The notes under the pieces: generated by a model
The model's input: the letters and a program-made list of their open reading frames with translations, nothing else
Told to the model about the DNA's origin: nothing
The model's database searches: none
Position numbers and translations under genes: made by a program
DNA from: Melioribacter sp.
GTDB lineage: Bacteria > Bacteroidota > Ignavibacteria > Ignavibacteriales > Melioribacteraceae
Assembly (NCBI GenBank): GCA_023250955.1
Contig: JAHEZQ010000028.1
Location: forward strand, 1-57,032
Length of the DNA: 57,032 nucleotides
Direction of reading: 5' to 3'
Part shown: piece by piece, positions 47,158 through 50,979 of the stretch
Position numbering within the stretch: the stretch's first letter is position 1
Layout of the letters: every line of letters begins with the position of its first letter

Positions 47158-48282
47158 ATGAAGATTAAAAAAATATTAACTTCTATCAGATGGTTCACTT
47201 TATTCCTAATCGTTTTTATTTCTATAAACTCTTGCCAAAAAGAATCTTCTGATACTTTGACCGGACCAGCAATTGAAGGCAGCATTGTTCACCTTGATAA
47301 ACTTGAACAAGGAAAAGTTTACAAGCTAAATGATTATCCTTTATTCGTTATGAGTTATAGAGGTGATTACGGATTCAGCAGATTTTTGAAAACTGGAATT
47401 AGAGAAATTGTTGGCGAAAAAATAAATAATCCGGATTGGGGCTGCACTTGTTTTACGGGAATGGTTAACAATAAAATTTTCGGAAGAAATTTCGATTACT
47501 ATCATCACATTGCACTAGCACTTTATACTCATCCGCGGAATGCCTTTGCATCGTTGTCCATTGTTGATCTTTATTATCTGGGATTTAATGAAAGCAGTTC
47601 TGCAAATCAAATTGAAAATTCCAATTCAGTTTCAAACGCACCCTTTTGGCCAATGGACGGAATAAATGAAAAAGGTGTTGCCATCGGACAGATGGCGCTT
47701 CCTTATGCTGATCCGCCTTATGATCCCAGCAAAAGAAGTCTAAACTGTTTGGAAATTATCCGGCTGGTTCTTGATTATGCTTCTAATACAGATGAGGCAG
47801 TATCGCTTATTCAACAATATAATTATAACGTCAATGGTGGTCCGCCCGTTCATTTTATGATTGCGGATAAAAGCGGCAAGTCGGCGATAATTGAATTTAT
47901 TAATAAAGAAATGAAAGTGATTTATAATAATGAACCATATCATGTCTCTACAAATTTTATAATTACCGGTTCGTTAGCACCTCAAACCACAGACTGTTGG
48001 CGTTACAACAAAGCTTACAGTGATCTCAAAAATGCCGGCGGTTCTATTGATGAAACTGCTGCAATGAATATTCTTCAATCAGTTTCGCAGAGCATAACAA
48101 TGTGGTCTGCCGTATATAATTTGAACACACCTTCACTTAATATTTCCACAGGAAAAGATTATAGTAAAGATTATAAATTACTTTTCAGTAATACTCTTTA
48201 TTCTTCTATTGTAGAGACGACCTGGCAGGTCGTCTCTACTTTTAAACCTATTTACAAAGTTAGGGTTATAAAAATATTTTAG
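47158..48282 (+). CDS. Linear amide C-N hydrolase (C45/C59 Ntn-hydrolase) lipoprotein
   Basis: 374 residues: a lipoprotein signal ending INSC (Cys26). The probable nucleophile is Cys96 in WGCTCF, followed by GRNFDYY (Arg110), matching the choloylglycine hydrolase/acyltransferase family. PVHFMIADKSGKSAIIE is also typical. The nucleophile would be exposed only after cleavage. The 3' end contains a GTARAGACG palindrome (48211-48239), so the last ~26 residues (after about residue 350) are probably not native. Confidence 0.75.
   Translation: MKIKKILTSIRWFTLFLIVFISINSCQKESSDTLTGPAIEGSIVHLDKLEQGKVYKLNDYPLFVMSYRGDYGFSRFLKTGIREIVGEKINNPDWGCTCFTGMVNNKIFGRNFDYYHHIALALYTHPRNAFASLSIVDLYYLGFNESSSANQIENSNSVSNAPFWPMDGINEKGVAIGQMALPYADPPYDPSKRSLNCLEIIRLVLDYASNTDEAVSLIQQYNYNVNGGPPVHFMIADKSGKSAIIEFINKEMKVIYNNEPYHVSTNFIITGSLAPQTTDCWRYNKAYSDLKNAGGSIDETAAMNILQSVSQSITMWSAVYNLNTPSLNISTGKDYSKDYKLLFSNTLYSSIVETTWQVVSTFKPIYKVRVIKIF
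48211..48239. repeat. GTARAGACG palindrome, copy 2, inside the hydrolase coding region
   Basis: Perfect 13-nt arms GTAGAGACGACCT (48211-48223) and AGGTCGTCTCTAC (48227-48239) with a 3-nt spacer. It is read in frame and encodes VETTWQVVST. It is the most perfect of the three copies. Confidence 0.9.
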
Positions 48283-48651
48283 ATGAAAAGAAGAATCATT
48301 CCATATAAACCACATCTCAAAGAACTTGCACGTAAGCTTAGAAAAGAAAGTACACTAACGGAAGTAATGTTGTGGTATGAATTGAAGGGAAGAAAGCTTC
48401 GCGGTTATGATTTCGATAGACAAAAACCGATTGATGATTATATTGTTGATTTCTACTGTAAAGATTTACAATTGGCAATTGAGATTGATGGCGAGAGTCA
48501 TATTAGTAAAGAAGAATATGATAAAGCCAGACAACTTCGCTTGGAAAGTTTGGGCGTGAGATTTTTACGTTTTGATTCTATGGCAGTGAGATATAATCTT
48601 GAAAAGGTTATTAAAGAAATAGAAAAGTGGATTGACGAAAATTCTGTGTGA
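48283..48651 (+). CDS. DUF559 / Vsr-like PD-(D/E)XK endonuclease
   Basis: 122 residues with the PD-(D/E)XK pattern: D56 in YIVDFYC, E67-x-D69 in LAIEIDGESH (H73), and an N-terminal ARKLRKESTLTEVMLWYELKGR. This is the DUF559 family, related to Vsr mismatch endonucleases and restriction-like nucleases. It begins at the very base after the hydrolase stop (TAG-ATG), with no clear ribosome binding site. It is flanked by palindromes on both sides (48211-48239 and 48671-48760). No methylase is adjacent. Confidence 0.85.
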   Translation: MKRRIIPYKPHLKELARKLRKESTLTEVMLWYELKGRKLRGYDFDRQKPIDDYIVDFYCKDLQLAIEIDGESHISKEEYDKARQLRLESLGVRFLRFDSMAVRYNLEKVIKEIEKWIDENSV

Positions 48652-48670
48652 GTTTTTTCATTTGTTTATG

Positions 48671-48760
48671 ACCCACCCCTTTAAGTTCCCCTCCAAGGAG
48701 GGGAAAATATTTTAAGTAAATTAAAAAGTCCCCTCTTGGGAGGGGACAACAGGGGTGGGT
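48671..48760. repeat. Compound inverted-repeat element (three stems)
   Basis: An outer stem ACCCACCCCT (48671-48680) / AGGGGTGGGT (48751-48760) encloses two hairpins: TCCCCTCC-AA-GGAGGGGA (48687-48704) and GTCCCCTC-TTGG-GAGGGGAC (48728-48747). A three-way-junction fold is predicted for DNA or RNA. The G/C-rich arms stand out sharply from the AT-rich surroundings. It directly follows the DUF559 gene. Confidence 0.9.
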
Positions 48761-48766
48761 TGCCTA

Positions 48767-48819: not shown

Positions 48820-50979
48820 ATGAAAAATTTAACAAAAATTATTTTTTTAGTTTCTATTCTTTTTAATTCATCATACATACAGTCCCAGAGTGATTCTCTT
48901 ATTGCAGCGATTTCTCCAGATTCTTTAATATTAACCATTAAAGAATTGACCGGAGCTGTACCAATTACACTCAATGGAAAAGTTAAAATAATTCAAACTA
49001 GAGCTATACTCACAACAGGAAACCGTCAAGCATCTGAATATTTCTCACAACGTATGAAACAAATAGGATTAAATGTTGAACATTCGTATTTCCAGGGTAC
49101 ATACTATAATGTTCAATTAAATTTTACCGGTATTAATGTAACTCCAGTTACAAATTTTCCCTTGTGGCTTTGTTCGGACTGGGGTGAAATTTTTAGCATG
49201 AAGAATTCAGGTGCTGAATGGGAATCTCGTTTAAACTCTGCGACACCACAAACTGACAGACTCGATTGGATTAATCCTCAAAATCAAAACACAATTATTG
49301 CAGTTGGTAAAACTGGAAATTTAACTTTGACAACTGATGCAGGAGAATCATGGACAAAAAAACCAACGGGAATTGCATCAATATTACATTTCTTCTCTTC
49401 ATCTTCAGGTACTTCAGTTGCAGTTGGAGAAAAAGGAACTGTATGGCGTAGTACCGATTTTGGTACAAGTTGGACTAAAATAATTGTGGACACCAATACA
49501 ACTTTTTCTCAAGGAACTTTCCTCAATAACGGTCACGTATTAGTTGTCGGTTATGATAAAACCCTACCATCACAAGGAAGAATTTTCGAAAGTAAGGATG
49601 CTGGTGTAACATGGTTTGTTGTTCAAAATACTTTCAGTTCACAACTCAAGACTGTTTATTCTTCTGATTCTCTACATGTATGGTGCGCATCTTCAAACGG
49701 AGAAGTTTATTATTCTAATTCTGCTGGAGTTATTTGGAATAAAAGTTTATTTGAGATTGGATCATCAGCTAATAAAATTTTCTTTAGTGATAATTCAAAC
49801 GGATGGATAATTACATCGGGGAAAAAATTCTTTAACTCAACCGATGGTGGAAGTACATGGAATTTTTTGTCCTCTATTGATGCACCTATCACAATAAATG
49901 ATTTTCTTTTTTACGACTCCAAAAATGGTTTATTAATTGGAAAGGATATCTCTAAAAAACAAACATCAGACGGTGGAATACAATGGCTTGACAGAACAAT
50001 ACCTTTCCATTACAATGTTATTGCTACAATAAATGGCACTCAAAGACCCGAACATTATATTCTATTTACTGCTCATACTGATTGCAATCTTACAACACCC
50101 GCAGATAGATGGCTTCTCGCACCTGGTGCAGATGACGACGGTAGTGGAATTGCTGTATTGTTAGAACTAGCTCGAATATTTAAAAAATATCCAGTCCCTA
50201 TCACTTTGAAGTTTGCTAGTGTTCCCGATGAAGAACTTGGTAGTGGTGGAGCCAATAATCTCGGAACAACATTACTCAGTAAACCATATACTTGTCGTCT
50301 TGTAATAGACTTTGATATGGTAGGTTATGATTATCGCTATCCAAGATCAGTAGCTATGACTTACTATGGCGGAACAGTTGCAGACAATTTGTTCACGCAA
50401 TATGTAAATAATATTTCTGCTACGAATATTCCACTTACTCCGGTTGGCTGGAAAAATGCCACACCTGCCAATGCTGCAGGATTTTATAATAAAAAGATTC
50501 CAATATTAGGGTTGATGGAGGGCGCAGGCTATATGTCCTTAATACAACCAAATTATCACAAAACAAGTGATTTGTGGTCAACAATAAATCCCGAATATAT
50601 TTCTAACATAACGCGTTCTACAGCTGCTTTTATTCATGATATTGCAACTGATTTATTTGTTGGTATTTCTGAAGATGATAATTCAGTTTCTATTCCTTCA
50701 TCCTTCATTTTAGATCTTCCATATCCAAATCCTTTTAACTCAACTACAATCCTCCGTTTTGGTTTACCAAATCCTGCTAAAGCTTCTATTATTATTTACA
50801 ATCTTTTAGGACAGCAAATTACTCGGGTTGCACAAGGATATTACGAGAAAGGATACCATACAGTTTCCTGGGATGCATCCAATGTAAGCAGCGGGATATA
50901 TCTTGCAAGGTTAACAGTCTTAGATAATTTTTCTAACATAAAATTTTCAAAAACTAGCAAGCTTCTTTTACTGAAATAA
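48820..50979 (+). CDS. Secreted M28 aminopeptidase with inserted propeller and T9SS sorting tail
   Basis: 719 residues: a signal peptide (about 1-22). N-terminal M28 helices (33-90) are followed by a run of YCF48/BNR-like repeats (about 115-390) with motifs such as TTDAGESWTK, STDFGTSWTK, SKDAGVTWF and STDGGSTWN. The M28 catalytic domain then resumes: H419 (FTAHTD), D438 (PGADDDGSG), E471 (PDEELGSG), D499 and a His in PNYHKTSDLW. A Por-type C-terminal sorting domain ends the protein (YPNPFNSTTILRF, LLGQQI, SSGIYLARL). It should be secreted by the T9SS. Confidence 0.9.
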   Translation: MKNLTKIIFLVSILFNSSYIQSQSDSLIAAISPDSLILTIKELTGAVPITLNGKVKIIQTRAILTTGNRQASEYFSQRMKQIGLNVEHSYFQGTYYNVQLNFTGINVTPVTNFPLWLCSDWGEIFSMKNSGAEWESRLNSATPQTDRLDWINPQNQNTIIAVGKTGNLTLTTDAGESWTKKPTGIASILHFFSSSSGTSVAVGEKGTVWRSTDFGTSWTKIIVDTNTTFSQGTFLNNGHVLVVGYDKTLPSQGRIFESKDAGVTWFVVQNTFSSQLKTVYSSDSLHVWCASSNGEVYYSNSAGVIWNKSLFEIGSSANKIFFSDNSNGWIITSGKKFFNSTDGGSTWNFLSSIDAPITINDFLFYDSKNGLLIGKDISKKQTSDGGIQWLDRTIPFHYNVIATINGTQRPEHYILFTAHTDCNLTTPADRWLLAPGADDDGSGIAVLLELARIFKKYPVPITLKFASVPDEELGSGGANNLGTTLLSKPYTCRLVIDFDMVGYDYRYPRSVAMTYYGGTVADNLFTQYVNNISATNIPLTPVGWKNATPANAAGFYNKKIPILGLMEGAGYMSLIQPNYHKTSDLWSTINPEYISNITRSTAAFIHDIATDLFVGISEDDNSVSIPSSFILDLPYPNPFNSTTILRFGLPNPAKASIIIYNLLGQQITRVAQGYYEKGYHTVSWDASNVSSGIYLARLTVLDNFSNIKFSKTSKLLLLK

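Follow-up and report, generated by a model that had tools for sequence, protein, structure and literature searches.

DUF559 nuclease genes and GC-rich palindromic modules: a probable homing-like mobile element of bacterial genomes

The stretch analysed here, called the window throughout, comprises 57,032 nucleotides (nt) of Melioribacter sp. (contig JAHEZQ010000028.1 of assembly GCA_023250955.1) and carries a small nuclease gene of the DUF559 family with a three-stem inverted-repeat element behind its stop codon. The gene and the three-stem element belong together. They are best explained, with a probability that we put at about 60%, as parts of a homing-like nuclease element with cognate palindromes that is widespread and mobile, and this appears to be a very small selfish DNA element of a kind not described before. 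An earlier note on this DNA had compared the arrangement with RAYT/REP pairs, a nuclease taking the place of the transposase, and the comparison is borne out by the co-occurrence of genes and hairpins, the matching of hairpin arms to nuclease subfamilies, the boundaries of copies and the existence of empty sites. The nuclease/palindrome partnership proposed in that note stands for the DUF559 gene and the three-stem element; it falls for a second palindrome further upstream, of the GTAG type. Literature searches, with most subscription papers and preprints outside their scope, found no report tying DUF559 to palindromes.

The gene and its modules in the window

The element as it stands in the window has three main parts:

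48283..48651, + strand: DUF559 open reading frame (ORF), PD-(D/E)XK-like and Vsr/homing-endonuclease-like; 122 amino acids, Pfam PF04480 with E 1.1e-31
48670..48705, + strand: 3′ module, read in the sequence, consisting of arm GACCCACCCCT (48670-48680) and hairpin TTCCCCTCC-AA-GGAGGGGAA (48686-48705)
48728..48761, + strand: outward-facing second module of 5′ type, read in the sequence, consisting of hairpin GTCCCCTC-TTGG-GAGGGGAC (48728-48747) and arm AGGGGTGGGTT (48751-48761)

The two modules form a 92-nt element (48670-48761) behind the DUF559 stop, in which the outer arms enclose two hairpins; the partner arm of AGGGGTGGGTT at 48751-48761 is GACCCACCCCT at 48670. Folded as single-stranded DNA, positions 48668-48765 reach -28.4 kcal/mol (z -5.3, 0/200 shuffles as good). 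The arms and both hairpins of the three-stem element described earlier are present, but in the minimum-energy fold the hairpins pair mutually to give one long hairpin instead of three stems. The order arm-then-hairpin of the 3′ module is that of the downstream module in three other copies, namely the second copy of the window's own genome (L054) and two copies of another genome (L180 and L205, genome G130), and the order hairpin-then-arm of the second module is that of their upstream modules. The window copy has the gene, a 3′ module and an extra outward-facing 5′ module, its own 5′ module before the gene being absent. We read it as probably a worn example of a small and widespread mobile element, with an intact-looking nuclease.

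Hairpins accompany DUF559 genes

Three sets of loci were compared. The discovery set comprises the window and the 60 DUF559 places ranked best in relatives from the same order, including the second copy in the window's genome itself; lower-ranked, mostly partial matches lie outside it, and a weak opposite-strand match at locus L053 was excluded. The phylum set consists of 27 loci and 40 high-ranked places, among the matches listed. The set for the window's own DUF559 subfamily (W) is the best 80 of at least 542 loci on genome contigs, most from metagenome-assembled genomes, in which binning errors are possible. For the phylum and W sets, some overlap in species or loci with the discovery set is possible. 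The criteria for hairpins were chosen on the discovery set and then reused, and a filter for pyrimidine-rich arms was added for the comparison of all three sets.

GC-rich hairpins within 250 nt of DUF559 stand upstream at 30/61 loci of the discovery set, downstream at 32/61 and on both sides at 17/61, against 39/2537 control windows taken from these loci; on either side, they are present at 48/64 loci of the phylum set and 65/71 of the W set. Pyrimidine-arm hairpins occur within 250 nt at 43/60, 45/64 and 62/71 loci of the three sets, compared with 21/2769, 8/549 and 33/2145 control windows (0.8-1.5%). These counts used 60/61, 64/67 and 71/80 loci, the rest having less than 250 nt of flank on one side, and a locus offers two 250-nt flanks against a single 250-nt control window, which at most doubles the chance level.

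The association extends to whole genomes. The 3.26-Mb genome of the window (G000) contains two DUF559 matches and 18 matches to CCCCTYYN{0,12}RRAGGGG, against 1 for the reversed pattern; three of the 18 hairpins stand beside its two DUF559 genes and 15 lie away from them as solo copies. DUF559 matches, counted with fragments, and hairpins rise together across 57 genomes (Spearman rho 0.62, p 3.5e-7, not corrected for relatedness), compared with rho -0.01 for the reversed pattern. The median net hairpin count is 8 in the 41 genomes with DUF559 and 1 in the 16 without. A single genome has up to 10 DUF559 matches, fragments included, and matches occur in 221/395 sampled genomes of the phylum.

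Nuclease subfamilies and their arm motifs

The DUF559 subfamilies defined by the tree differ in their arm motifs, which were taken from the same discovery loci in which they are counted here: ACACCCCT in W (8/14), ACCACCCC in B (6/7), CCTCACCC in C (6/7), GAACCC[CA]TC in D (6/7) and ACTCA[ACT]CCC in E (9/14). At 80 further W loci ACACCCCT was found in 21, against 16/1100 control windows, and the arms of the other subfamilies in 1-3 each. The motif ACMCACCCC, which covers the window's ACCCACCCC, lies within 300 nt of 50/80 W loci compared with 10/484 control windows. These W loci come from Bacteroidota, Planctomycetota, Neomarinimicrobiota, Nitrospirae, Acidobacteria, Chloroflexi, Thermotogae and others, mostly as metagenome assemblies. 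In the phylum set, 9/11 copies nearest the hsdR type carry the C motif. Across different genomes, flank similarity also rises modestly with protein identity (rho 0.20, and 0.26 without the metH and hsdR copies; 0/2000 permutations as high). From these comparisons, DUF559 subfamilies are shown to have what read as module versions of their own.

Among the loci compared in the window's genome, all seven solo elements with GACC[A/T]CCCC arms on both sides (L130, L132, L135, L139, L141, L142 and L143) have an A/A (4) or a T/T (3) mismatch at the same stem position, as expected of one directed element lying on either strand. Elements with two exact ACCACCCC/GGGGTGGT arms were found in 1/57 genomes; this result carries no weight, since in the window's genome it is at just that position that solo elements of this type have the mismatch. 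A further solo element of the same genome (L140, G000:C35:80554) has W-type arms, ACACACCCCC / GAGGGGTGTGTGG, and lies on a contig without a DUF559 match.

Boundaries of copies

Forty-five of 97 copy pairs were listed and eight were compared in detail. L180 and L205, both in genome G130, are 85.5% alike over 490 nt and different beyond. Their homology begins shortly before the upstream hairpin (GTCCCCTCTCCAGAGGGGAC ... AGGGGTGTGTGA) and stops just after the downstream one (ACACACCCCT ... GAGAGGGGAC). L234 and L235, on two contigs of one assembly, lose homology around their hairpins in the same manner, and in both pairs homology is lost 65-105 nt outside the DUF559 domain. L054 has the plan of L180. 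Inverted arms on both sides, that is, terminal inverted repeats (TIRs), are present in L054, L180/L205 and L234/L235 and are incomplete in the window copy; in the complete units L054, L180 and L205, DUF559 is the sole gene between the modules. Given these boundaries and the plan of L054, the complete unit in the window's subfamily reads as hairpin-AGGGGTGTGT ... gene ... ACACACCCCT-hairpin, with arms that are inverted copies of each other. Insertion of gene and modules between genes is clear in a few pairs.

Some DUF559 copies have in-frame stops, among them L053 (G047:C1:1323077) and L219 (Pontibacter mangrovi), indicating that decaying copies exist.

Possible traces of insertion also lie around the window copy:

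48247..48261, + strand: left copy of a 15-nt direct repeat, CCTATTTACAAAGTT, a possible target-site duplication (shuffle test)
48262..48267, + strand: AGGGTT, possibly a worn remnant of the arm of the absent 5′ module; a weak resemblance, seen by eye, to AGGGGTGTGTCA...AAAATATTT upstream of L054
48763..48777, + strand: right copy of the direct repeat, CCTATTTACATAGTT, 14/15 identical (shuffle test)

The direct repeat, absent from the earlier note, brackets the window unit with one mismatch and was equalled by 4/5000 shuffles and by 1/1460 positions at the same spacing. Other loci have long direct-repeat flanks, up to 263 nt. A flank score of at least 20 was reached in direct orientation at 15/60, 29/63 and 26/70 loci and in inverted orientation at 12, 18 and 30, and at none after shuffling.

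Insertion within host genes

At 39/208 DUF559 loci the gene lies in an open frame of at least 230 codons. Of these long frames 29/39 were scanned, and 24/29 carry a domain of another protein (E 1e-8); no intein domain was found in the 29 proteins at E 1e-8, introns not having been searched for. The hosts include methionine synthase (metH), leucyl-tRNA synthetase (leuS), methylmalonyl-CoA mutase, UvrD-like helicases, and type I and other restriction-modification proteins; in GATase_5 amidotransferase and QueG hosts, DUF559 is joined at an end of the available sequence. Hairpins, too, are found inside translated host proteins. In L150, L153 and L171 the leuS insert is placed where the editing domain begins, and in L207 behind that domain.

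Filled and empty sites can be compared directly in two of these genes. Within one genus of the phylum the metH site is filled in 2/15 species (G359, G406) and empty in 13, twelve of them by sequence and one (G201) by match coordinates; for leuS, G108 has a filled site and G387, of the same genus, an empty one, with 495 versus 24 unaligned nt. The earlier note had suggested looking for empty sites in close relatives: such sites exist for metH and leuS in other genomes, but none was found for the window copy. Trees of the metH hosts and of their inserts do not separate an old insertion from repeated homing.

In one further metH gene (L100, genome G003) the linker contains a palindrome-like stretch, encoding DGEGLGEAVLPFGEYKGGA, and no nuclease; it may be what a lost insert left behind.

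In subfamily E, at least 5/14 DUF559 genes, picked by eye, stand in CRISPR-Cas operons (L051, L064, L070, L045 and L048; genomes G055, G015, G030, G027 and G012), at cas1/cas2 in three loci, at cas6/cas1 and at cas7/cas4; the cas1 of L051 is of type II by NCBIfam. Either repeated insertion or recruitment to adaptation may account for this placement.

Predicted fold of the nuclease

The AlphaFold2 model of the window protein has a mean predicted local distance difference test score of 91.4. Its best solved match is a putative endonuclease (3hrl; VIA-align Z 16.1), followed by the homing endonuclease I-Bth0305I (3r3p; Z 12.4, root-mean-square deviation 2.2 over 94 residues, Foldseek E 2.4e-4), a mitoribosomal protein (Z 9.8) and Vsr (1vsr/1cw0; Z 9.4). 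With a mitoribosomal protein ranking between I-Bth0305I and Vsr, the lower ranks are not discriminating. The fold is predicted to be restriction-endonuclease-like, I-Bth0305I being the nearest biochemically studied protein. Eight residues, E27, R46, Q47, D56, E67, D69, H73 and D80, do not vary among 58 aligned sequences. A catalytic role is putative for E27, D56, E67, D69, H73 and D80, and E27, D56, H73 and D80 are candidates for the conserved Glu, Asp, His and Asp of the EDxHD active site.

The GTAG palindrome and the neighbouring genes

48211..48239, no strand assigned: GTAG palindrome; real, probably unrelated to the element

This palindrome was named after the GTAG tag of REPs (PMC3733652, available part). 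As described in the earlier note it is perfect, with 29 nt in two 14-nt arms and 1 nt between them. With this spacing and up to 2 mismatches allowed, the window's genome has a single copy of it, and the palindrome's motif, GTAGAGACG/CGTCTCTAC, was found within 400 nt of 1/208 DUF559 loci, namely the window alone, some loci having flanks shorter than 400 nt. The proposal that it brackets the nuclease gene as a second partner is rejected on this count, and the palindrome is probably a chance neighbour of the element. The last codons of the CBAH-family gene (VETTWQVVST) read through it in frame, which places it inside a coding frame.

The CBAH-family gene (47158-48282) is the upstream neighbour of DUF559 and a peptidase M28 gene (48820-50979) the downstream one. 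Pfam searches at E 0.001 found no methylase among five scanned neighbour proteins, two of which are without any Pfam match at that threshold, and distant methylases were not searched for; the description of a 122-residue DUF559 nuclease without a methylase holds to this extent. PADLOC and PHROGs yielded no more than weak matches. The ATG directly abuts the TAG stop (48280-48282) of the preceding gene, and no Shine-Dalgarno-like stretch is apparent by eye, just as had been stated. The suggestion that the gene was therefore spliced in does not follow, because L054 likewise starts without an obvious ribosome site.

A possible mechanism and its alternatives

A homing-like element with cognate palindromes could work as follows. 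The nuclease would recognise its own module once this is extruded into a hairpin or cruciform, or would act on a similar target, cutting or nicking it. Repair of the break would then copy the gene and its modules into the cut site, and gene and modules would spread together. Solo modules could be left where the gene was lost between repeats, or could come from movement in trans.

A number of observations weigh against this explanation. Movement is read here from sequence comparison, and cutting of the palindromes is inferred. Pyrimidine-arm hairpins are absent at 17/60, 19/64 and 9/71 DUF559 loci, and 5/16 genomes without DUF559 reach a net hairpin count of 5-17. The phylum set carries the arm motifs weakly (W 3/18, B 3/11, E 0/6), and the window's genome has at least seven solo elements of the GACC[A/T]CCCC type, neither of its DUF559 genes belonging to that subfamily. 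Of the eight copy pairs, three (L180/L205, L234/L235 and L275/L286) diverge close to the domain at both ends, the last without a hairpin in common upstream; in the remaining five the shared context extends further on one or both sides, which is what inheritance would give. At metH and leuS no exact target-site duplication was seen by eye, some of the linker differs too, and a single old insertion followed by many losses would fit the metH copies. No empty site was found for the window copy, whose CBAH neighbour has no close relative in the 57 genomes, and the direct repeat around it is imperfect (14/15), with moderate statistical support. Finally, flanks are direct in some loci and inverted in others, so that one mechanism may not fit all.

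Two of these points had been singled out in advance by the earlier note, which held that DUF559 copies lacking the repeats, or repeats equally common far from any DUF559 gene, would speak against the partnership. Some copies do lack a hairpin, but most have one; 15/18 hairpins of the window's genome lie away from DUF559, yet per base they are strongly concentrated beside it, and solo hairpins are also predicted by the RAYT analogy.

Among the alternatives, a role for DUF559 in repair, as a Vsr-like endonuclease that works with a distant cytosine methylase and has incidental palindromes beside it, is unlikely. Its Vsr fold (VIA Z 9.4) would suit such a role, as would the SOS response linked to VsrA on deletion of a methylase (PMC12907096, available part). 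This would leave unexplained why hairpins stand on two sides, why arms follow the subfamily, why a genome has several matches, why homology ends at the hairpins and why the gene is inserted in frame in metH and leuS. Repair activity and mobility of an element are not mutually exclusive.

The direct-repeat flanks of up to 263 nt resemble products of homologous or site-specific recombination, and several in-frame hosts are restriction-modification proteins. Both would suit a separate recombinase that moves the modules in trans as a miniature transposon, with DUF559 as cargo for defence or addiction. DUF559 is, however, alone between the modules in L054, L180 and L205, and the arms vary by DUF559 subfamily; we consider this explanation quite unlikely.

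The palindromes might instead be REP or TIR repeats moved by a RAYT-like Y1 (HUH) transposase, with DUF559 as a passenger or neighbour. The layout is REPtron-like, Y1_Tnp genes occur in 52/57 relatives, and GGGGTGAG of one DUF559 subfamily fits the GGGGWSAS motif of TIRs that flank some Y1 transposases (PMC3733652, available part). In the same genomes, pyrimidine-arm hairpins were found near 2/30 Y1_Tnp (RAYT-type) loci, taken among the matches listed and four of them with shortened flanks, against 43/60 at DUF559; a Y1 transposase is accordingly disfavoured as the mover of the modules, and this origin of the palindromes is quite unlikely. Several of the Y1 loci (L293-L322) adjoin other hairpins such as CCACGAGCTTTAGCTCGTGG, perhaps their own REPs. 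Least probable of all is that the hairpins are transcription terminators or mRNA-stabilising stems near small accessory genes with no tie to the nuclease. In favour of this are the GC-rich stems, which in several solo copies of the window's genome lie just behind stop codons. Against it, GC-rich hairpins are nearly as frequent before DUF559 as behind it (30/61 and 32/61) and also occur inside translated host proteins, their arms match the nuclease subfamily, and pyrimidine-arm ones are rare at the Y1 loci (2/30), the one other gene type compared.

Implications

We propose more tentatively, at somewhat less than even odds, that the homing-like element represents a new class of autonomous selfish element, in which a single-domain Vsr/EDxHD-like nuclease recognises and spreads with its own subfamily-specific palindromes, without transposase, intron or intein, and is tolerated as an extra in-frame domain in essential genes across many phyla. 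Were this so, the element would be the nuclease counterpart of RAYT/REP, and it would show a way for a selfish gene to enter essential genes without splicing. Pfam lists DUF559 as of unknown function. A tie to cognate palindromes would account for this family as well as for a class of GC-rich repeats found in AT-rich bacteria, and would offer a simple system for the co-evolution of a nuclease and its repeats. The subfamily-matched modules make binding and cutting tests easy.

Comparison with known systems

Palindromes that move or settle in genes are known from other settings. Rickettsia palindromic elements are repeats that lie in frame in protein genes; they are short and not known to have a nuclease gene of their own. 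Yeast mitochondrial GC clusters and fungal double-hairpin elements are mobile palindromes of AT-rich genomes, some of them near homing-nuclease ORFs; they differ from the present element in being organellar and in involving other nuclease families.

RAYT/REP systems (REPtrons, REPINs) and TIRYT/TIRtrons are alike in having a small enzyme gene between matched palindromes, solo copies and some repeats within genes (PMC3733652, available part). Palindromes flank DUF559 genes on both sides at 17/61 loci, and the window copy on its 3′ side only. The differences are that the enzyme is the restriction-endonuclease-like DUF559 and not a Y1 HUH transposase, that the modules read here have pyrimidine/purine arms instead of a GTAG tag, and that the DUF559 enzyme gene itself occurs in frame in essential genes.

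EDxHD homing endonucleases such as I-Bth0305I share with DUF559 the fold of the catalytic domain and the placement of the gene in conserved genes, here repeatedly at one metH site. DUF559 differs as a single-domain protein from I-Bth0305I, which has extra DNA-binding regions (PMC3943268, available part). The window copy, moreover, is a stand-alone ORF, no intein domain was found in the 29 long in-frame proteins, the ends of the element are palindromic modules, and many copies lie outside genes. Free-standing homing genes are known (PMC3943268, available part), and the lack of an intein is compatible with that kind.

Vsr and the Caulobacter protein VsrA are alike in fold, and VsrA has the same Pfam domain. 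Deletion of a cytosine methylase that is not linked to VsrA leads to an SOS response for which VsrA is responsible, in keeping with an active DNA nuclease (PMC12907096, available part). By contrast, there is no methylase among the window's five scanned neighbours, and palindromic modules and mobility are not mentioned for VsrA in the available part of that source.

Taken together, the element works like a REPtron or a free-standing homing gene, differing from the former in its enzyme and from the latter in its splicing context.

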